Assembly (NCBI GenBank): GCA_003222835.1
Contig: QHXE01000102.1
Coordinates: 1 to 9,085 of the forward strand
Source: Acidobacteriota bacterium
GTDB lineage: Bacteria > Acidobacteriota > Blastocatellia > Pyrinomonadales > Pyrinomonadaceae
Length of the DNA stretch: 9,085 nt
Reading direction: 5' to 3'
The position numbers and the translations under genes are program-made. Under the pieces are notes generated by a model. That model was not told the DNA's origin, made no database searches, and saw only the letters and a list, made by a program, of their open reading frames with translations. Positions 1 to 9,085 of this stretch are shown one piece after another. Every line of letters starts with the position of its first letter. Position 1 is the stretch's first letter.

Positions 1-18
1 CCAATGTTCGATTCATGG

Positions 19-1968
19 CTAGAATTTGCTCTCCTCAATGCGCACCAGCCCGTTGTCCGTGCCCACGTAGATGTATCCGTTGCCTTCGGCAAGCGCTGTC
101 ACATTCGCGGAAGGCAAACCGTCCGTAACCACCGTCCAGCGCTCTTTCTCGCGGTCGTAAACGTAGAGTCCTTGATCCAGGCTTCCCGCGAAAACGTGGT
201 CCTTGGTTACCAGCATCGCGTTGGGATTAATCTCGGTCGCAGTGGTCACATTTTGGTACGCGTGGAACTTTCCCGTGCTGTCGAGTCCCATCACGCCGCT
301 CCCATAAGTTCCAATCATCCATTCGTCGCCCACCCGCGCGACCGCAGTAATCCAGTTCTGCTTCAATCCGGAATTCCCTGCCGTGAAATTTGCTCTTACG
401 AATCCCTTTTCGACTGCGGAAAGTCCACCCAGCGTCCCCACCAACAGATCGTCGCCCGCCACTGCCAGCGCGTAGACATGGTTGTTCACGAGTCCATGAA
501 AGCTGTACATGCTGCGGGCGCCTTCAGCGTCCAGAAACGTGATGCCCGCGGGAGTCGCAATGGCTAATCCGTCGTGGTAAGGCACCACGTCCGTGACGTG
601 CTCGGCTATCAAGCCGTCCGCTGTTCCTAAAACCTGCTCCGGCTTCCCACTTGCTCCGAAGCGCACCAAACCGTTCGCGGTCGCTACTTCCACCGCGCCG
701 CTCTTCGTATCCGGCCAAATGCGATTGACGCAAAAAACGTGCTCATTCTCGATGTGCGCCGGGCGCGCCGGTCCGTCCGGCAGAACGTCGAGGCCGTGGT
801 CGAAGTAGCCAACCCACAGTTGGCCATTGGCGTCGCCCGCCAAAGCGGATATGTTGCGGTCGCTCAGAACCGCGGGTCGCGGCTTGAGCACTTCCTGCCA
901 CCCAAAGCCATTCGCCTTGACCTGGAAAATACCATTGCGCGTGAGGACCATTACTCCTTGCTCAGTTCCCTGGATTTGCCGGACCTCCTCTGCACCCATG
1001 CCGACGCCGTCCCGAGACGCGGAATGCCGAAGATTCGAGGCAAGCGGCGCGCGAACGACGCCTTGATCCTCCGAACCAATCCACAACTCGTTGCCCTCAA
1101 CATGGAGGCAGGTCACCAGGACACCGTTGGCCAACACGCCTGAAAAGCGGCCCCCATCAAACTCCGCTACACCCAGCGGCGTTCCGACATAAGCCTTATC
1201 CCCTGCCAACGTGATGGCTTGCACCTGCCGATCCGGGAGCCCCTGTTCCTCCGCAAACACATCCGTCGTTCCGGCATGCCAGTGCCGGACTCCCCCATCC
1301 AGCGTTCCAACCCACAAATCCACGTCGGAGCCCGCCAGCGCCTGGACATACAAATGGCCCAGCGTGGGATGCAATTCCTGAATGGTCTTTCCGTCATAGA
1401 CCAATACCCCGCGTTTTTTCGTGCCAATGAGCAGGTGTCCGCTCGTAACCGGCAGGATCGTGGTCACCGCGCGCACCTCCGCGTCCGCGGAATAGATTTG
1501 CCGGAACTTCTGTCCGTCGAACAGCAGAATGCCTTGGCCTGCGGTGGCCAGGATTAATTCGGGCTGCGTTGCTCCTGCGACTTGTCCAACCGCAGCTGCC
1601 ACTAAAGGCGAGGCTGGCAAGTCCCGCCCGGCGGAGAATTCACGCACAAGATTGCCGCGCAAGTCGTATTGCAGCAGACCTGCAGGTCCTGCGACGTACA
1701 AGCTGTCCTGGAAGTGCGCTACCTGCGCGAAAACTTCCGGCGAACGCACCGACTCAAAATTAAGGTTTTGCTTGGGAGAAAATGGCCGCACCGCAAAGGC
1801 CAACTCGCGCTCCGCTCGAAGTTCCTGCTTCGAAAGCTTGAGTGCCCGCGAAACCTGCCACAGGACAACGCCGCCCAAAAAACCAGCGGCCACTATCGCC
1901 AATCCGCCTATCCACCACCATCGCCGCCCGCCGAGAGAGACCATGATTCCTCTTCGAGTTACCAACAC
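19..1968 (-). CDS. membrane-anchored Reg_prop-type beta-propeller sensor protein
   Basis: The 649-aa protein starts at GTG 1968; an in-frame ATG at 1944 is the alternative, with AGAGGA only 3 nt upstream. One hydrophobic segment (about residues 18-38, WWWIGG through VVLW) follows a short basic N-terminus, indicating a signal anchor with the rest outside the cytoplasm. From about residue 90 to the end the chain is a series of beta-propeller repeats of the form 'LWVGT.dgGV': LLIGTKKRGVLVYDG, DLWVGTLDGGV, ELWIGSEDQGV, LWVGYFDHGL, LLVGTLGGL, VFAGSLDQGLYVY and IYVGTDNGL. A 'GLPSANVTALAEG' linker is typical of the Reg_prop family, found in sensor domains of hybrid two-component regulators. No histidine kinase, GGDEF or DNA-binding domain follows; the protein ends at the last repeat. 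It may be a stand-alone extracytoplasmic ligand or protein-interaction module. The ligand cannot be predicted. Base composition is more GC-rich than the element to the right, consistent with core chromosome. Confidence 0.85.
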   Translation of the reverse strand: MLVTRRGIMVSLGGRRWWWIGGLAIVAAGFLGGVVLWQVSRALKLSKQELRAERELAFAVRPFSPKQNLNFESVRSPEVFAQVAHFQDSLYVAGPAGLLQYDLRGNLVREFSAGRDLPASPLVAAAVGQVAGATQPELILATAGQGILLFDGQKFRQIYSADAEVRAVTTILPVTSGHLLIGTKKRGVLVYDGKTIQELHPTLGHLYVQALAGSDVDLWVGTLDGGVRHWHAGTTDVFAEEQGLPDRQVQAITLAGDKAYVGTPLGVAEFDGGRFSGVLANGVLVTCLHVEGNELWIGSEDQGVVRAPLASNLRHSASRDGVGMGAEEVRQIQGTEQGVMVLTRNGIFQVKANGFGWQEVLKPRPAVLSDRNISALAGDANGQLWVGYFDHGLDVLPDGPARPAHIENEHVFCVNRIWPDTKSGAVEVATANGLVRFGASGKPEQVLGTADGLIAEHVTDVVPYHDGLAIATPAGITFLDAEGARSMYSFHGLVNNHVYALAVAGDDLLVGTLGGLSAVEKGFVRANFTAGNSGLKQNWITAVARVGDEWMIGTYGSGVMGLDSTGKFHAYQNVTTATEINPNAMLVTKDHVFAGSLDQGLYVYDREKERWTVVTDGLPSANVTALAEGNGYIYVGTDNGLVRIEESKF

Positions 1969-2763
1969 TGGAACGCCGATTCCGACACAAATCTTGCAGG
2001 AAGAGTTCCATCTGCTTTCTTCGAGGTTTGACTACATCTTGCTTGAATCTTAGGCGGGCTGTCGTGTTCGCGAAGAAACGCTGTGTCCTAAATCTTACAC
2101 AATTAACCGGAATGCCTATGGGTCGAGAGTCCGTCGAGGCTCGCGCGCGGCAGGCACTGCAAGAAGCGATGTATCGGTCGAGAACATTCAGAGCTTCATG
2201 AAAAACGCGGCCCGTTCGCTCTTTCGATCTGGCGACCGAGGCTCAACGAACTGGCAGATGATTGTTGGCAACATCGGCTGGCGAATTCGCCGACGTACTT
2301 CCTGAACTACCTTTGGCAATGATAGACAGCATTGTCGTAACCCTTCCGCCGGGAGTGCAGACCAATGAGAGTCGGAATGTGAGATGTGCTGCCTCGCGAT
2401 CCTCTGGTGCAATGCCAAGAAGTCACTCGAATAGCGCCGGTCCTCGAAGGGCTGCAACGGTTTCCTAGACCGTTGCACGGGAGAAACAGCGGTCAGCACG
2501 AAGCGTGGGTTTGAATCGCCGACCTCGTGGTTCAATGCAGGAGATATCCAATGCCGAATCCTACATCTGAAGCCTCGCGGGCTTCTGATCTTGACGACGA
2601 TCAGGGATCGAATCTTCGAAGTATCTGCTTAAGTCGCTTGTTTGCAACGCTTACGAGATTTCGACCGGTGACGCGCGACCGACATTTCTCGAAAAAAAGG
2701 CACGGATTTGGGTGGATCTGGAAAAAATGGAAAATTAAGCCGCGGCCTAAGTGCTTTGTTTTC
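1969..2763. other. intergenic region without a convincing gene
   Basis: About 800 bases between the propeller gene and the tRNA-Gly scar. Short open frames exist on both strands, but none reads like a protein family. The best-placed one starts at ATG 2551 behind AGGAG with 7-nt spacing, but it runs straight through the tRNA fragment. The promoter of the propeller gene must lie at the left end of this region (reading leftward), but I see no strong -35/-10 pair. One perfect hairpin lies at 2453-2477. Otherwise I see nothing. Confidence 0.5.
2453..2477. repeat. perfect 9-bp inverted repeat with 7-nt loop
   Basis: TGCAACGGT (2453-2461) pairs perfectly with ACCGTTGCA (2469-2477) across the 7-nt loop TTCCTAG. 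The loop and the inner five base pairs resemble the anticodon arm of a tRNA-Arg(CCU). The flanking sequence does not form a credible D arm, T arm or acceptor stem, so this is not called as a tRNA. No T-run follows, so it is not a typical intrinsic terminator. It could be a decayed tRNA arm or a protein-binding palindrome. Confidence 0.5.
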
Positions 2764-2789
2764 TGGAGCGGGCGATGGGAATCGAACCC
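2764..2789 (-). repeat. 3' end of tRNA-Gly gene; probable island attachment-site remnant
   Basis: Read on the minus strand, this 26-nt piece contains GGG, the T-loop TTCGATT, CCCAT, the acceptor 3' strand CGCCCGC, discriminator T and encoded CCA. T73 with a GCGGGCG-type acceptor fits bacterial tRNA-Gly. The match stops abruptly upstream: the next bases (TA, where AT would be needed) break the T stem, and no anticodon arm or 5' half follows. Tyrosine-recombinase islands typically leave such 3' tRNA copies. The orientation puts old chromosome to the left and the island to the right, with the intact tRNA expected beyond the right end of the window. Confidence 0.7.
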
Positions 2790-2834
2790 TACGCCCCAAG
2801 TGATAACACGTAACTTATTGATTCTAAAAAGAGC

Positions 2835-2850
2835 ATAAGGAACACAAGGT
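2835..2850 (+). repeat. left terminal inverted repeat
   Basis: ATAAGGAACACAAGGT here corresponds to ATAAGGATCACAAGGT on the opposite strand at 8650-8665, with one mismatch. The outer TA (2836-2837) would be the duplicated target dinucleotide, leaving AGGA..CACAAGGT as the repeat proper. Confidence 0.7.
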
Positions 2851-2889
2851 GCATAAAGTGCAGGATCGTAGCACAAATTTAGCACGAAA
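2849..2889. repeat. subterminal GTGC-box cluster at the left end
   Basis: Just inside the left terminal repeat are two direct GTGCA boxes (2849-2853, 2858-2862). Two TAGCAC boxes follow, with GTGC inverted (starting at 2869 and 2880, period 11, TAGCACAAA against TAGCACGAA). Four copies of one core within about 40 bp suggest binding sites for the transposase or a regulator. The right end does not show an equally clear cluster. Confidence 0.4.
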
Positions 2890-3077
2890 CATGGAGTCGG
2901 AGTGCATCGAACGAATTGAACGGCTCGAGTTCGGAAGAGTCGTGCCGGATCCGATTGTGGCCCGGCATCTCTCTCGTAAGGGTGATCACACGCTGTCCGC
3001 CGTTCACCCTCGGGCATCCGAGACTACCGATTCAGGTCGCACGATTAGCGGCAAACCGTGCCAACCGCGAGGTACAG

Positions 3078-4595
3078 ATGCTCGACAAACAAACGCGTGG
3101 CGCCATTCTTGTGCTCCGGAGGAAAGGGCACAGTCTGCGTCTCATCTCACGCCTTCTCTCTTTGAGCCGCCAAACCGTAAAGAAAGTCATAAAAATCGGT
3201 TCGGACGTGCCTCCAGTCATCCATCGTCTAGGTAAACTCGACGCCCACCATGAACGAATCGCGCAGATGCTGGCGGAATTTGACGGAAGCGTTGTCAAAG
3301 TACGTCGGGAACTGGCCGATGCCGGTATGAGCGTCGGATACTCAACACTAACTCGTTTCTGCCGGAAGAATTACCTGTTGGACGGTTTCCGAGCTCCCAG
3401 ACGCTCCGTCGAGGCGACACGACAATGGTTGCTGGAGCTGGTACACGGAGCATATGGCGGGGAACGCTTTCACTCCCGGCTTCCTTGTACTGCTGATCTC
3501 CAATTCCTGCTTTCCAAACTGAAACATGGCCGATCCCGAGATCGTAAGAAAGCGGCTACCATTCTCGCCAGAAAACGAGGCATTTCGAATTTCCTGATCG
3601 CAGAGGCACTTCGGTCTTCACGCAAAACTACACGGCGATACTACAAGATGTATCTTGAAGCCGGGCCGGAAAAGCTGTTCGCCTGGAATACGACTCGGCA
3701 CATCGGTATCGAAGCCCGGTATTGCGAGCGAACAAAACGCATCTTCGAAATCTTCCACCATAAGCCAACCGCCTTCGGCATCAACCGCACGAATTGGACG
3801 CACTCCGCACTCCTTAAAGCCTATGAGAAGTCATATGGCGAGGTTATCTCCCGATGCACTCTTGTCAGAATACTGCGGCGTGCTGGTTTCAAGTGGAGAA
3901 AGGCGCGACGAGTGCTTACCAGCCCGGATCCTCGTTACCACGAAAAGCTCGAGCTGTTGTTGAACACATTGCACCACCTTGGTGCGAATGAAATGTTTTT
4001 CTTCCTCGATGAGTGGGGGCCGACACAAGTCAGGAAGCGGGGAGGAAAGGCATATCGGAACGAGCATGTAACGATTCCTCGTCACCAAGTTTCTCGCGGC
4101 AATGTGTCGTTGGTTGCCGCGCTGAGCGCCACAACAAATCAGGTAACATGGCACTTTCTCGAATCAAAGGATTCACATGCCATGATGGACATGATCGAAG
4201 TCTTGTACAACCAGTACCACACAAAAGCGAAGCTCTATATCACATGGGACGCCGTCGTATGGCACAATTCCGGTCCGCTCCTTGAAGCGTTGGATCAGTT
4301 CAACGATGAAACCAAAGCGTTTTCGGTTGGGCCGACTATCGAACTGGTGCCGCTTCCGACATCCGCACAGTTTCTCAATGTGATTGAGGGAGTTTTGAGC
4401 GGAATGACGCGAGCCGTCATCAATAACTCCGACTACTCTGACGCAGCTGAAATGAAGCAGGCGATCTCAAGGCACCTTGTGGAGAGGAATGAGCATTTCA
4501 GAGACAACCCCAGGCGAGCCGGCAAGAAAATCTGGGAACTTGATTTCTTTGAAGATTTCGATGCACTTCGAGCCGGGAACTACAAGGAGAGGTAG
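3078..4595 (+). CDS. IS630-type DDE transposase with IstA-like N-terminal HTH
   Basis: I chose the ATG at 3078 because GAGGT lies 4 nt upstream and the recognisable HTH begins at once. The frame is open back to a TTG at 2916, but that stretch does not look protein-like. The 505-aa product has an N-terminal helix-turn-helix (residues 5-45, LRRKGHSLRLISRLLSLSRQTV) like that of IS21 IstA, then an IS630-style HTH region (about 140-205). The DDE core follows: D311 in FFFLDEWGP, D391 in LYITWDAVVW and E437 in FLNVIEGVL. All three acidic residues are present, so the enzyme may be active. The D391-E437 spacing (45 intervening residues) is longer than the 34 or so usual in this superfamily. At about 505 aa it is longer than ordinary IS630 transposases (about 340-360 aa). 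The C-terminal third is clearly related to the minus-strand copy at 6902-7315, well over half identical by eye, but the N-termini differ. It converges on the Pol I-like gene. Confidence 0.85.
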   Translation: MLDKQTRGAILVLRRKGHSLRLISRLLSLSRQTVKKVIKIGSDVPPVIHRLGKLDAHHERIAQMLAEFDGSVVKVRRELADAGMSVGYSTLTRFCRKNYLLDGFRAPRRSVEATRQWLLELVHGAYGGERFHSRLPCTADLQFLLSKLKHGRSRDRKKAATILARKRGISNFLIAEALRSSRKTTRRYYKMYLEAGPEKLFAWNTTRHIGIEARYCERTKRIFEIFHHKPTAFGINRTNWTHSALLKAYEKSYGEVISRCTLVRILRRAGFKWRKARRVLTSPDPRYHEKLELLLNTLHHLGANEMFFFLDEWGPTQVRKRGGKAYRNEHVTIPRHQVSRGNVSLVAALSATTNQVTWHFLESKDSHAMMDMIEVLYNQYHTKAKLYITWDAVVWHNSGPLLEALDQFNDETKAFSVGPTIELVPLPTSAQFLNVIEGVLSGMTRAVINNSDYSDAAEMKQAISRHLVERNEHFRDNPRRAGKKIWELDFFEDFDALRAGNYKER

Positions 4596-4630
4596 ACACT
4601 CCAAGGCGATACTTCAACGCGTAACAGCTC

Positions 4631-6895
4631 TCAATAACGCACAAGCCATCCGATGGCAGACCTCGTCGCCATGTTCTTTTTTTCGATGTCGGAGCTCCGA
4701 AGGCCCGCGAGGTATATCCGCTGGCCATCATGTTCCGCGTAACCTCGTGCGATGGACTCCTGTCGAAAACGATCAAGCCATTCGAAGAGGACCGGGTACC
4801 GGACCTGCAAACTTGCCCTAATTCTCATCGCCCTTTCAGGACTGATAAGGAAACGGCGGCACATGGCCGCATTCGGAAGGCCAATAGCAATGGAGAGCAG
4901 CACCTCCCCATGTTCCATGCCTTCGAGCGATGGCTCCCCGGAACACCGGAAATCGGATCGCGCGCAACGGGTTAGTTCCGTGCGCAGAGCTTCATCTTTC
5001 GTGATCTCCTGCAACCTTCGCAATGCCTGCTTGGTGTTCGGATAGTCTTGGCTTAAGAGTGCGTCCTTTACCGCATTAGCTCGCAATGCTTCGTCGAGAT
5101 TTGGGCTCGCCGAGGTTGCACTCATGTGCGGTACACGCAGCTGACTAAACAGCGAAAAAACCCTTCCTCTTCTCGCTGCATTCTGAATTGCCTCGAGTTC
5201 ACGCAGGCGCTTACGAACTCTCTTGTACTTTACAATCTGCTCGATGAGCCGATGACGCCACGCAAGCTGTTCCATCTCGGACTGCGTTAGCGATCGAGAC
5301 GTTATCCATTCCCGTAAGGCTTCAACCCTTCTCAGGGCATCCGAAGTCACCTTCCGGGAATCCAGATCGAATTCGCAGCCTGCCGCCTCCTCCAGAAGCG
5401 GATTTATCGCTATCCCGATCTTCTTTACATCTATTCGGACACCCTCAAATTCCATTTCCGCAAGCTTCGCCAACACCTGCATTCTGACCCTTAGGAAGTT
5501 GTCTTCCAACTGACGATTCCGAAGCTCTACGTTCAAACGATGGAATAACCGCAGCGACATATCGGCGTCGGTGCACGCATGTTCGACGAGATCTTTGAAC
5601 GGAACGTCGAGGAATGTCTGCTCTTTTTCGATGATTTCGCTGTACCGTTTGATCTTTGTTCCTAATAACCTCCGAGAGACATCACCAAGGTTAAAAAAGT
5701 CCCAGTCGCCGAAGCAGTCGCCAGCCGCCAACATCGTGTCGAAATGGATGTTTCGCAGGCGCATTCCGTGTTTCCGCAAAATCAGGTAGTCAAACTTGAT
5801 GTTGTGTCCAACAAATTTTGTCTTGACCCTGAATAGTTTATTGAGCCGAGTTCGAACTTCGTCTTGAGATACCCGATCTAGATCCGACTGAATGAGGGGT
5901 ACATAAACGGCCTGCCTCTCCCTGACAGAGAACGCAACGCCGTAGAGCACCGCATTCCTCGGATCTCTGTCGCTGGCCTCAGTGTCCAAAGCGCATATCT
6001 CTGCGGCCTTGACCATGTTCTGGAGTTCATCCAATTCCGCCGGCGTGCGGGCAGCCCTGTAATCCGGCCGTGTAGGATTCTCTTCGGCTCTCACCAGCTC
6101 CTGCTCGGGCAAAGGGAGAAGGCGAATCAGCGACCAGAATCCATACTCCTTCAAGGCGGAAGCGGCAGATTCCACATCTTCGATAAAGTTCGTTTCCCCA
6201 TACCTGCCTTTCAGGTCCCCAAGAGATGGCAACCTGAATTGGAGTTCACGGCAGCGTTCACGGATGGCATCACCCCTCATAGCCAGCTTGCGCCCAACTT
6301 GTCCGAGATCTCCCGCTGCGGCTTTGGTCAAAACAGTTTCGAGAGTCCCGTGTACTTCGAGGATGCGCACAGCCTGTCTTTGTGTGAGCACCGGATCGCG
6401 TCCGTTCTTCTCGATCAACGCGAGCAAAAATGGCACTTGACTAGGGCTGACGCCGAGCTGGTCTTTTATAGAGGTCATTGTCACGACATCCAGCTCACCG
6501 CCCTTCTTCGGAAGAATGACACCACACCGATGAGTGATGAGCTGAAACATCGCTTTGTTCCCTGTTATGATCCAGGCGCAGTGCGCCGCCAGAGCAGCAC
6601 AGAGATCTCCCACTCGCACACCATTCGTGTACAGGACCGGCACGCGAAGCCGCTTCAACAAATCTACGGTGTCAGAAACAAGCGGCCCAGGCACGCAAGA
6701 TCCAGTATCGCCGATGACGATGAGAGCCTTTCGCATGCCAAGTTGCTTGCGCAAGCGCATCAAGTCACGAACAAATCCAAATAGCATTGTCGTGTCACGG
6801 CCACCCGAATCGTACAAAAGTGGAGCGCCATGAAAGGTATTGTGGCTCGTCTCGAGTAGAAATGTGGAGTCTATGACGAACAGGCTGTCGGCCAT
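4631..6895 (-). CDS. Pol I-like protein: 3'-5' exonuclease intact, 5' nuclease and polymerase degenerate
   Basis: This 754-aa homologue of family A DNA polymerases starts at ATG 6895, 6 nt after the transposase stop. There is no clear Shine-Dalgarno, so coupled translation is likely. Residues 1-225 resemble the Pol I 5' nuclease, but most metal ligands are changed: D9 is kept, GVEADD has become GVRVGD (92-97), and TGDKD has become TGNKA (111-115). Residues 280-460 form a DnaQ-like exonuclease with D304 and E306 (LDTEA), D369 (GHNIKFD) and D443 all present. The usual YxxxD of exo III is HACTD, so Tyr is His. Residues 465-580 look like the thumb. Around 594-600 SASPNL matches the SSTDPNLQ region, and D617-Y618 may be what remains of motif A. 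Motif B (about 662-675) lacks the catalytic Lys. The RYPVLFEWLDRF..GYAE segment (699-720) matches the stretch before motif C, but the protein ends at 754 without motif C. A processive polymerase is unlikely; an exonuclease or DNA-end-binding role is inferred. Confidence 0.8.
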   Translation of the reverse strand: MADSLFVIDSTFLLETSHNTFHGAPLLYDSGGRDTTMLFGFVRDLMRLRKQLGMRKALIVIGDTGSCVPGPLVSDTVDLLKRLRVPVLYTNGVRVGDLCAALAAHCAWIITGNKAMFQLITHRCGVILPKKGGELDVVTMTSIKDQLGVSPSQVPFLLALIEKNGRDPVLTQRQAVRILEVHGTLETVLTKAAAGDLGQVGRKLAMRGDAIRERCRELQFRLPSLGDLKGRYGETNFIEDVESAASALKEYGFWSLIRLLPLPEQELVRAEENPTRPDYRAARTPAELDELQNMVKAAEICALDTEASDRDPRNAVLYGVAFSVRERQAVYVPLIQSDLDRVSQDEVRTRLNKLFRVKTKFVGHNIKFDYLILRKHGMRLRNIHFDTMLAAGDCFGDWDFFNLGDVSRRLLGTKIKRYSEIIEKEQTFLDVPFKDLVEHACTDADMSLRLFHRLNVELRNRQLEDNFLRVRMQVLAKLAEMEFEGVRIDVKKIGIAINPLLEEAAGCEFDLDSRKVTSDALRRVEALREWITSRSLTQSEMEQLAWRHRLIEQIVKYKRVRKRLRELEAIQNAARRGRVFSLFSQLRVPHMSATSASPNLDEALRANAVKDALLSQDYPNTKQALRRLQEITKDEALRTELTRCARSDFRCSGEPSLEGMEHGEVLLSIAIGLPNAAMCRRFLISPERAMRIRASLQVRYPVLFEWLDRFRQESIARGYAEHDGQRIYLAGLRSSDIEKKNMATRSAIGWLVRY

Positions 6896-6901
6896 AGCGC
6901 A

Positions 6902-7315
6902 TTACCATTCACGATAGTTTCCGGAGTTCAGGTTCTCCATGTCCTGAAAGAAATCGATCTCCCAAATCTTTTTCCCGGCGCGCTTCGGATTGTCACGGAA
7001 ATAATCATTGCGCTCGACGAAGTGTCTTGAAATGGCTGTCTTCATTTCATCTTCAGATTGATAATCTGAATGATGGATCACGGCTTTCTTCATCCCGCTG
7101 AACACCGCCTCGATTACATCCAAGAACTGAGAGGACGTTGGGAGCGGAACGAGATGAATAGTAGGACCGAAACCTGACGAGGTGGTTTCGACGTTAAACG
7201 CATCGAGCCACTCCACAAGCAATCCTGATTTGTGCCAGGAAGCGGCATCCCAGGTCAAATAGATCCGGATCGTGAACGGATACCGATTGAACAGAATCTC
7301 AATTAGATCGATCAT
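6902..7315 (-). CDS. C-terminal part of split IS630-type transposase (catalytic D2 and E)
   Basis: The 137-aa product carries the second half of a DDE domain: D23 in IYLTWDAASW and E69 in FLDVIEAVF, with the same 45-residue spacing as the plus-strand homologue. It ends in the same ERN..FRDNP.RAGKKIWE..FF block. The first catalytic Asp lies in the upstream frame (7312-8646), so this piece alone cannot be a transposase. Its ATG overlaps the upstream stop as ATGA (7315-7312). It could be translated by reinitiation, joined to the upstream frame by a -1 ribosomal shift, or be the remnant of a frameshift mutation. The in-frame sequence just before the ATG (..FHSTAKDTQA) still aligns with the homologue's HFLESKDSHA. 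This shows that the homologous reading crosses from one frame to the other about 12-40 nt upstream of this ATG. Confidence 0.8.
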   Translation of the reverse strand: MIDLIEILFNRYPFTIRIYLTWDAASWHKSGLLVEWLDAFNVETTSSGFGPTIHLVPLPTSSQFLDVIEAVFSGMKKAVIHHSDYQSEDEMKTAISRHFVERNDYFRDNPKRAGKKIWEIDFFQDMENLNSGNYREW

Positions 7316-7347
7316 CGCCTGCGTATCTTTTGCGGTGGAATGGAATA
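7312..7347 (-). other. frame junction: possible -1 frameshift site or 2-bp insertion, with ATGA overlap
   Basis: Upstream-frame codons read CCG CAA AAG ATA and end at TGA (7314-7312). Slippage by -1 on AAG gives AAA followed by GAT, entering the frame KDTQAM, which matches KDSHAM of the plus-strand homologue. A-AAG is a known, rather weak -1 slip motif in insertion sequences. Alternatively, removing two bases near 7340-7343 restores W-LFHSTA-KD, closer in length to the homologue's W-HFLES-KD, so a 2-bp insertion is also plausible. The ATGA overlap would additionally allow reinitiation. Confidence 0.5.
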
Positions 7348-8646
7348 GAGCCAGCTCACCTGGTTCGTCGTCGCGTTCAACGCTCCTGACATGATCACCG
7401 AGCCCTTGTTCGGTTGTTCCTGTGGGACGGTGTGTACGTCCCTCTCGTGAACAATCCCACGACCGCCGTATTTCTTCACTCTCAGCGGACCCAGTTCATC
7501 AATGAAGAAGAAGAGCTCGTTTGGCTGAAGATTTCGAAGAGTGGTCAGAACTAGATCTACCTTTTCTCGATACTCGGGATCAGGGCTGGAGAGCACTCGA
7601 CGTGCTTTCTTGATCTTGTAGCCAGCTTTCTGGAGGATGCGACCGACAGTGGCTTTTGAAATCGTCTCTTCGTAACACTGCTTGTACGCGGTTGCCAAAG
7701 AAGCATGATTCCAACTGGCCCGGTTGATTCCGTAAGCTTGAGGCCGGCTGTGAATCAGACCAAGAACCCTCACTCTCTTTCGTTCAAGGGCAACCCCCTT
7801 TTTTCCTGGAGATCTCTTTTTCCGCGGACGATTGAGCCCCGCCAATCCTTGATGGTTGTAGATCGTTATCCACTCTCGGATCGCATCAACCGGCAACTCT
7901 ACCTTCTTGGCTATTTCTTCGAGGATAAGGCTGCGGTTATCCAGAATGGTGACGGCCTTTTGCCAGAGACGCTTATCGTTGGATTCTCGCCACTTAACAA
8001 GTTGCAGCTTGTCTTCTTGACGCACGAAGCGAATGCGCCATCGATCTTTCGGGCGTCCTGGGGAATCTACTGTAGGTAGCCGACTCCGAGCAGCGGAGGC
8101 AGCGTGTCTCGAAAAAACCCCAGGATATTGAAGGATGTTCTTGCCTCGGTAGGAAAGGGCGCGGGGTGCTGAAGAACACTTCCAGGTAATGGAATATATT
8201 GCGATGACGGCAAGGCGAAACGTATACAATTCGCCGAAGTCAAAGATGAATTCGAATGAATCCCCTCTGGTGAGATCGATCAGGTGCATTGGGATCGCGC
8301 AGGAAACGCACGGCTCCTTCGCGTCAACAATGTAATCGTCATCATTGCCAAAATTCACGTAGCAGCAATTCTTGATCTTGAATTCATACAGGTGATCCTC
8401 GGACCAGCCCAGGATCTCTAGTATTATCGCGGCAAGTTGTTCGAGGGTTGTCTTGTCCGCGATCTCAAAGTCTCGATACCAATTCGGATGTAGGAATTCG
8501 GGATCTCTCGGGCATTGACCTCTGTATTGTATGCGGAGTTTGAGGATCTGTGAGGTGCGCCATTTCCGCTTTCTCGATTTTCCTTCGACGTGAATCGGCC
8601 CGTTCGATTGTACATCGGTGCCCATGTTCGGCAGCCTGGGAAGCAT
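7312..8646 (-). CDS. pRiA4b ORF-3-like domain fused to N-terminal part of IS630-type transposase
   Basis: A 444-aa product from ATG 8646 (CACAAGG 4 nt upstream); ATG 8625 is an alternative. Residues 33-176 match the plasmid pRiA4b ORF-3 / IS1096 TnpR family: a 'TTLEQLAAIILEILGW' helix (66-81), HLYEF (85-89), an IFDFG turn (134-138), and RGKNILQYPG (167-176) as in the 'GKAPPQYPD' ending of that family. A CVSC pair is at 113-116. Residues 210-280 are an IS630 helix-turn-helix (EIAKKVELPVDAIREWI, then NRPRKKR). The DDE fold begins with D383 in FFFIDELGP. The frame stops at QKIRRR before D2, which is encoded in the overlapping frame 6902-7315. A -1 shift on the AAG codon at 7329-7327 would give a 581-aa fusion; without it the protein is catalytically incomplete. 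The start codon lies only 3 bp inside the right terminal repeat, so the element end probably carries the translation signals. Confidence 0.8.
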   Translation of the reverse strand: MLPRLPNMGTDVQSNGPIHVEGKSRKRKWRTSQILKLRIQYRGQCPRDPEFLHPNWYRDFEIADKTTLEQLAAIILEILGWSEDHLYEFKIKNCCYVNFGNDDDYIVDAKEPCVSCAIPMHLIDLTRGDSFEFIFDFGELYTFRLAVIAIYSITWKCSSAPRALSYRGKNILQYPGVFSRHAASAARSRLPTVDSPGRPKDRWRIRFVRQEDKLQLVKWRESNDKRLWQKAVTILDNRSLILEEIAKKVELPVDAIREWITIYNHQGLAGLNRPRKKRSPGKKGVALERKRVRVLGLIHSRPQAYGINRASWNHASLATAYKQCYEETISKATVGRILQKAGYKIKKARRVLSSPDPEYREKVDLVLTTLRNLQPNELFFFIDELGPLRVKKYGGRGIVHERDVHTVPQEQPNKGSVIMSGALNATTNQVSWLYSIPPQKIRRR

Positions 8647-8649
8647 CGA

Positions 8650-8665
8650 ACCTTGTGATCCTTAT
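8650..8665 (-). repeat. right terminal inverted repeat
   Basis: On the minus strand it reads ATAAGGATCACAAGGT, 15/16 identical to the left repeat at 2835-2850. The match continues weakly for two more bases (one of two identical) toward the transposase ATG at 8646. The AAGG inside the repeat is the best ribosome binding site for that gene. The outer TA is the presumed target duplication. Confidence 0.7.
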
Positions 8666-8762
8666 AATAGTGACAGAAAGCAGAGGGTTGCTATGTCATC
8701 TCGCACGATTCTGCGCCGCCGACTTGAATTCGTCAATTGTTGAATCCCGAGAAGGACTCACA

Positions 8763-8975
8763 ATGCTGCGCCGAGTCGAAACGGTCGGCGCCACGCAAGG
8801 CTTACCTTTTCTGCGCCGGCTATCGGCGAAGGCGCGGGTCCTTCTCCCCCGAACACAGGAAATCAAGTTGGCGGCCAGACGCCACCTGGTTCCCTTCAGA
8901 TCCTCCGGTGGCGGCCAAACCGCTCGCCGGCTGCCCGGAGCCAACACTTTGTGGGGCATTTTAGAAACGCATTGA
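8763..8975 (+). CDS. doubtful 70-aa hypothetical ORF outside the element
   Basis: ATG 8763 is preceded by GAGAAGGA with 6-nt spacing, a good ribosome binding site. The product (MLRRVETVGATQGLPF at the start) is rich in Arg and Ala, has no recognisable domain, and overlaps open frames of similar length in the other frames, so the frame may be accidental. It lies 98 nt outside the right terminal repeat and 20 nt before the next possible start. The stretch 8869-8920 inside it contains a 12-nt direct repeat (11/12), which fits a non-coding leader at least as well. Confidence 0.25.
   Translation: MLRRVETVGATQGLPFLRRLSAKARVLLPRTQEIKLAARRHLVPFRSSGGGQTARRLPGANTLWGILETH
8869..8920. repeat. short direct repeat with nested hairpin
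   Basis: TGGCGGCCAGAC (8869-8880) recurs as TGGCGGCCAAAC (8909-8920), 40 bp apart, with one difference. Within it CGCCACC (8880-8886) can pair with GGTGGCG (8907-8913). No function is evident; it could be leader RNA structure for the gene starting at 8996. Confidence 0.4.
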
Positions 8976-8995
8976 ACAGATCAGAGGAAATTCTC

Positions 8996-9085
8996 ATGGA
9001 AGGAGGTATGCCTTTCTTTCAATTCTGTGCCTCGAATCCTCGGCGGGAAGCTGGCTGTAGCCTTGTGTGGGATCAGCGAGTCGGA
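8996..9085 (+). CDS. 5' end of a gene running off the window (unknown product)
   Basis: ATG 8996 lies 7 nt after AGAGGA and opens a frame that reads to the window end without a stop (30 codons, starting MEGGMPFFQFCASNPRRE). A second in-frame ATG at 9008 follows an AGGAGG directly, but too close to serve as its own binding site. The same frame is open back to about 8744, though that stretch does not look protein-like. The fragment is too short to assign. Its position inside the presumed island suggests an accessory gene. Confidence 0.4.
   Translation, partial: MEGGMPFFQFCASNPRREAGCSLVWDQRVG

Follow-up and report, generated by a model that had tools for sequence, protein, structure and literature searches.

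A polymerase-dead paralogue of DNA polymerase I linked to IS630-type transposases in a rare, putatively mobile operon

The window analysed here, the whole stretch of 9,085 nucleotides from a member of the Pyrinomonadaceae (Acidobacteriota; contig QHXE01000102.1 of assembly GCA_003222835.1, positions 1 to 9,085 of the forward strand), carries a gene resembling that of DNA polymerase I (Pol I) between the genes of two IS630-type transposases, TnpA and TnpB. IS630-type transposases and this Pol-like gene are coupled, and the arrangement recurs in independent assemblies. We propose that the window holds a copy, now partly decayed, of a mobile operon that would combine one or more IS630-related DDE transposases with a Pol I paralogue predicted to be unable to copy DNA or to cut flaps and still to trim 3' ends. 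We put the probability of this at about 0.5, and the best reading of the data is a rare, patchily spread family of DDE elements that appears to have a dedicated, polymerase-dead exonuclease.

Results

TnpA, a transposase of 505 aa with an extra N-terminal helix-turn-helix (HTH) and intact catalytic residues, is encoded on the plus strand (3078-4595); the ATG at 3078 and not an upstream TTG was taken as its start, since homologues of 505 aa start there. The Pol-like gene (4631-6895) and tnpB (8646-6902) lie on the minus strand, the latter split into two overlapping frames, of which the 5' piece (7312-8646) encodes a PRiA4_ORF3 domain, an HTH and the first half of the DDE domain and the 3' piece (6902-7315) its second half. 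TnpA matched the IS630 family model NF033545 with an E-value of 8.7e-38 and 130.4 bits, above the cut-off of 100; the pieces of TnpB matched it with 5.9e-21 and 5.2e-11, each below the cut-off because the protein is split. Thus, two IS630-type transposases in inverted orientation, as described in the initial annotation of this DNA, were recovered, and the coordinates confirmed the reported gaps of 6 nt (stop of tnpB to start codon of the Pol-like gene) and 35 nt (Pol-like gene to tnpA). The frame of TnpB breaks at approximately 7312-7345. A programmed frameshift was considered and rejected because the closest full-length relatives, at locus L003 and in P0241 (579 aa; 90 member sequences), are encoded in a single frame; decay or a sequencing error is the likelier cause. 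The predicted structure of TnpB (pLDDT 67.7) was too uncertain and was left out of the argument.

The Pol-like protein belongs to a conserved family of approximately 764 aa with the Pol I fold in three domains. The polymerase residues D705, D882 and E883 were absent in all of 35 aligned members, and polymerase motifs A, B and C were found in none of 120 members, the best of 363 matches in a protein search; some of the remaining 243 could be ordinary Pol I. The ligands of the 5'-nuclease were likewise rarely kept among the 35 (E113 and D115 in none, D138 in one, D140 in two), apart from D116, which 22 retained. The residues of the 3'-5' exonuclease, in contrast, were kept almost throughout (D355 and D424 in 34, E357 and D501 in 35), with the exonuclease tyrosine replaced by histidine in every aligned member. 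Judged by these residues, two of the three active sites of Pol I have been lost and the third has been retained. The C terminus ends by Klenow residue 850, the rest being gone, and the protein of the window lacks 10 aa that are present in the 99%-identical P0001. P0001 and P0121, which like P0241 occur on metagenome contigs, have 37 and 61 member sequences. From dN/dS values of 0.06-0.52 in eight comparisons, the gene is seen to be under purifying selection. The initial annotation likened the gene to a replication protein, a reading that falls with the missing polymerase residues.

Phage, plasmid and viral collections gave only weak matches to the Pol-like protein, with less than 32% identity, which were taken as probable ordinary Pol I or exonuclease domains. 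A PADLOC scan of TnpA and TnpB gave no match. In the nearest of the genomes compared, G001, no match to the Pol-like gene was returned by a search that was insensitive to remote relatives, since it missed the ordinary Pol I of G001 as well.

A scan of genome contigs listed the best 80 loci, 14 of which (L003-L016) were assigned to the family by identity (29-89%). Ten of the other 66 (L017-L082) were checked and had polymerase motifs A and C intact, as in ordinary Pol I; the remaining 56 were set aside by rank and identity alone. Two family loci, L011 and L015, start inside the Pol-like gene at a contig edge and were left out of the upstream count. A same-strand gene for an IS630-type transposase directly precedes the Pol-like gene in 11 of the 12 loci with upstream DNA, and with the window and L283 (genome G590) added, such a transposase or its remnant was found in 13 of 14, in L009 as a remnant only. 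In L004 a different transposase (rve_3) takes this place, and another stretch of that transposase, 97% identical, lies 6 kb away. L004 and the window match at the DNA level only as far as a point within TnpB, 58 nt before the Pol-like gene begins; L004 was therefore read as an interrupted copy. With start codons called at the first ATG, seven loci (L005-L010 and L014) show a 7-nt overlap of the Pol-like gene with the end of the transposase gene. The family loci are nearly all metagenome-assembled contigs, so that single copies may hold assembly errors.

The hosts belong, by the labels of the records and of the tree, to the Acidobacteriota, Pseudomonadota, Myxococcota, Nitrospirota, Planctomycetota and Bacteroidota. 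Relatives of TnpA (E-value at most 1e-20) were present in 11 of 13 host genomes, and by their contig coordinates all 20 matches lie at Pol-like loci. Further, when the match lists from the protein database were compared, longest contigs of identical size occurred 18 times between the Pol and TnpB lists and eight times between the Pol and TnpA lists, with approximately one expected. Across 10 loci, of which three are partial, the distances among the Pol-like proteins co-vary with those among the transposases encoded upstream: r was 0.70 for the C-terminal 330 residues, a value reached by one of 5000 permutations, and 0.47 for whole proteins (66 of 5000).

Additional transposases of the same clade were found in 8 of the 14 loci, in varying order: convergent in the window, L003 and L004, in tandem upstream in L005, an undamaged operon of three genes, and in L007, and downstream in L006, L008 and L009. 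L007 has three transposases, and L012, L013 and L016 have a single one within 6-10 kb of flank on both sides; in L010, L014 and L283 the contig ends are too near to judge. The three-gene set of the initial annotation, whose recurrence in other genomes was its main proposed check, is thus borne out as an association, in 13 further loci, and not as a fixed two-transposase design or gene order; the Pol-like gene does adjoin such transposases elsewhere. L007 also has a serine resolvase gene upstream (3486-4037) and an AbiEi/AbiEii toxin-antitoxin pair downstream (12419-14618), possibly the cargo of a larger element.

The transposases of the Pol-linked clade have 423-721 aa and added N-terminal domains, PRiA4_ORF3 in TnpB and several relatives and the extra HTH in TnpA-type proteins. 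The catalytic triad is kept in the aligned transposases with one exception: of the three L007 transposases, the second has no second D. Among the matches listed, all three DDE motifs were present in 90 of 120 for TnpA and 107 of 120 for TnpB, and the second D and the E are 45 residues apart in 88 of the 90 and 106 of the 107 measured. A midpoint-rooted tree built from 18 catalytic domains separated, with 100/100 support, all 14 transposases linked to a Pol-like gene from four solitary relatives (L204-L207), which are long IS630-type transposases of alphaproteobacterial plasmids, 38-39% identical to TnpA. No Pol-like gene was present within the 17 kb examined around each of these four, and no terminal repeats were detectable. 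One of them adjoins a tyrosine recombinase gene. Transposase relatives that stand alone, which with repeats of their own would have been counter-evidence in the initial annotation, were found only as these distant plasmid genes; among the host genomes searched, 13 in number, no TnpA match lies away from a Pol-like locus.

The best-supported extent of the unit in the window is the segment 2991-8867, which is shared at 94% identity (blastn, edges aligned) with L003, an Acidobacteria contig with other surroundings. The near-identical repeats starting at TA that had been claimed as terminal (2835-2850, plus strand, and 8650-8665, minus strand) match at 15 of 16 positions, a value reached by none of 300 mononucleotide shuffles of zones of that size, the zones having been chosen post hoc; a second inverted pair in the window (1026-1042 and 9028-9044) matches at 16 of 17. 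The right copy lies approximately 200 bp inside the shared segment, directly 5' of tnpB (4-19 nt upstream of its start codon), and the left copy approximately 140 bp outside it, and these positions led us to reject the pair as element ends. Besides, L003 lacks 5 nt beside the right copy which create its TA start. L003 and a TnpA relic in genome G874 stay similar for 94 bp beyond the left edge of the match in the window, so the true left end may lie farther out.

Direct repeats surround the transposase-Pol unit in L012 (90 bp, 99% identity) and L013 (103 bp, 78%). The L012 repeat (8294-8383 and 12611-12700) is dispersed, with a constant 3' end, CCTATCACT, a variable 5' extent and copies in the genome and its relatives. 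The L013 repeat (8282-8399 and 12624-12730) is a promoter-leader of approximately 100 bp that ends near CCTATCAGT and also precedes the transposase of the unit. It was dropped as an element end because the leader occurs at 11 other places in the same Phycisphaerae genome, after 10 of which an unrelated open reading frame (ORF) of at least 239 aa follows; L013 12357-12568 is dispersed in relatives, too. If both repeats are host sequence, the unit would extend at most approximately 110 nt upstream of the transposase and at most 60 nt downstream of the Pol-like gene. The end motif of the leader was not found upstream of the transposases at most other loci, and an Rfam scan detected only a tRNA, in L012.

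The unit is rare, having been found in one of 396 genomes of the phylum and in two of 399 of the class, one of which is the genome of L003 itself. The neighbouring genes differ between loci, and DNA with the unit was gained at variable places. At L012, the flanking genes are adjacent in 14 listed relatives, 12-2451 nt apart in 13 of them and 8552 nt in one, and approximately 5.8 kb apart in the host of the unit, where the insert also carries other foreign DNA. Genomes G974 and G929 match L003 up to position 3963; over the next 30 bp or so they resemble each other and not L003, from which we conclude that something entered L003 at this point; the other junction was not found in relatives. For L006, the right flank is present in G421 and G469 without the left flank adjoining it; the flanks of L016 lie on different contigs, and those of L013 are not joined in relatives. 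Empty sites with a single TA, by which the initial annotation would have recognised insertions, did not emerge, the exact insertion point being found at none of these five loci. In sum, these comparisons support mobility of the unit without proving it.

Outside the unit, the left side of the window holds a host gene for a propeller protein (19-1968, minus strand), and G001 matches positions 1-2490 at 96% identity (blastn). The window has no complete tRNA, and a stretch of 40 bp (2761-2800) shares 90% identity with G001 where the region of its tRNA-Gly(CCC) gene ends. This stretch may be what is left of an attachment site duplicated by an island that targeted a tRNA and had no relation to the transposases. 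In the 220 nt 5' of tnpB, at 8711-8818 and 8749-8847, CTGCGCCG occurs three times in direct orientation and GTCCTTCTC/GAGAAGGAC as an inverted pair; these are possible regulatory or transposase-binding sites.

Discussion

How could a Pol I paralogue with a retained exonuclease site serve a transposon? The protein would bind broken or gapped transposition DNA by its retained Pol I fold and trim 3' ends, most probably the short 3' overhangs at the donor after excision, or else ends at the target after joining, and this would clear or repair the donor in favour of the element. Transposon insertion leaves gaps at the target. Such gaps and the 3' overhangs of the donor are natural substrates of a Pol I-like exonuclease, which makes 3' trimming the likeliest role in transposition, one that we infer. 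That the exonuclease gene begins before the transposase gene has ended suggests that the two proteins are made jointly, perhaps as one complex. A farther-reaching proposal is a new class of bacterial DDE transposons in which a family A DNA polymerase gave up synthesis and flap cleavage and became an obligatory exonuclease subunit, translationally locked to one to three transposases and inherited together with them across phyla; this we advance tentatively, as a possibility that falls short of even odds.

Several observations weigh against the proposed mobile operon. Terminal inverted repeats were sought near the ends in 11 relatives and none surpassed shuffled sequence (10-100 of 100 shuffles reached the best repeat, with the lowest counts in L008, 10/100, and L004, 13/100), and neither a target duplication nor exact ends were found in the window or its relatives. 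The counts that make the unit rare may miss remote members, since the first search found members of 42-46% identity and missed ordinary Pol I. Ten of 11 hosts carry one element per genome, which is low for an active transposon; G398 carries two very different ones, L004 and L008. Copies are broken in the window, L003 (TnpA in two ORFs), L004, L008, L009, L012 and L283. Exonuclease activity with histidine in place of tyrosine is a prediction. ISY100, a relative of IS630, transposes with its transposase alone according to the available excerpts of the report (PMC2170065), so the known mechanism does not require a nuclease partner.

The main rival to trimming is suggested by the TnsE pathway of Tn7. 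The Pol-derived protein may be a target selector or assembly factor, a mimic of Pol I that locates 3' termini, whether in gaps or in the lagging strand, and recruits the transposase to them, with the nuclease being secondary. Nearly the whole architecture of Pol I was retained as two active sites disappeared, as such a role would have it, and TnsE binds the clamp as well as DNA whose 3' ends are recessed, as far as the accessible portion of the source tells (PMC5371812). If catalysis were irrelevant, however, it is hard to explain why almost every member has preserved the exonuclease residues, and we consider this role unlikely. The single element in most hosts and the missing ends would also suit a domesticated or defence-like module of transposase-derived proteins and a nuclease that spreads horizontally and does not move itself, and toxin-antitoxin or nuclease genes such as AbiEi/AbiEii are indeed located near L007. 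In such a module the conserved DDE residues would be unexpected; moreover, the neighbours vary by locus, several copies are decaying as inserted elements do, and PADLOC assigned the Pol-like protein only to a generic DEDDh model with an E-value of 2.9e-4. A module of this kind is, in our view, quite improbable.

That the more distant, solitary transposases do without a Pol-like gene could mean that the latter is a passenger, serving the host or the upkeep of the element and taking no part in transposition. Its strict position and its overlap with the upstream transposase, the co-varying distances and the presence of this neighbour in all members with upstream DNA, except the interrupted L004, leave little room for a passenger. 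A chance composite, with a degenerate polA fragment caught between two independent IS630 elements, might have been read from the inverted transposases and the broken frames of the window; it is refuted by the recurrence of the gene set in 13 other loci of several phyla, and the Pol-like genes form a conserved family on which selection acts.

The proposed mobile operon can be set beside several known systems. IS630/Tc1-mariner elements are the standard of one-protein cut-and-paste transposition. They share with the unit the DDE_3 catalytic domain and HTH_23/32/33 parts, with TnpA scoring above the NF033545 cut-off, and differ from it in that the unit has an extra, Pol-derived gene and one to three transposases instead of a single gene alone, and in that terminal inverted repeats and a TA target duplication were not found in it. 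Casposons and Polintons are likewise mobile elements with a polymerase-related gene; they use family B polymerases, whereas the protein of the unit has a family A fold and has lost the polymerase residues. With Pol I itself it has the three-domain fold and the 3'-5' exonuclease residues in common, and it lacks the polymerase residues, most 5'-nuclease ligands, the exonuclease tyrosine and the end of the C terminus. The spacing of second D and E is 34-41 residues in Tc1/mariner transposases, according to the part of the source available (PMC8533490), versus 45 here. Tn7, with an accessory protein that locates 3' ends, may be a parallel in function; it was compared by function and not by sequence, the gene set of the window containing no Tn7 proteins. 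In eukaryotes, ISL2EU pairs a DDE transposase with an ORF for an exonuclease domain, as described in the accessible sections of its report (PMC4482050); by the same sections it differs in its transposase superfamily, its YqaJ nuclease, its eukaryotic hosts and its known terminal repeats and AT duplications. The literature covered, with most subscription papers and preprints outside it and sources available in part, did not describe IS630-type transposases alongside a gene derived from Pol I.

If true, a branch with a nuclease derived from Pol I, the chief polymerase of gap repair in the cell, would make two questions directly testable: how such elements handle donor breaks and target gaps, and whether a transposon can appropriate repair when all that it retains of Pol I is the part that trims. 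The family may also be regarded as a natural experiment in dismantling a polymerase, in which the same sites were lost and the same one was kept in 35 of 35 aligned members.

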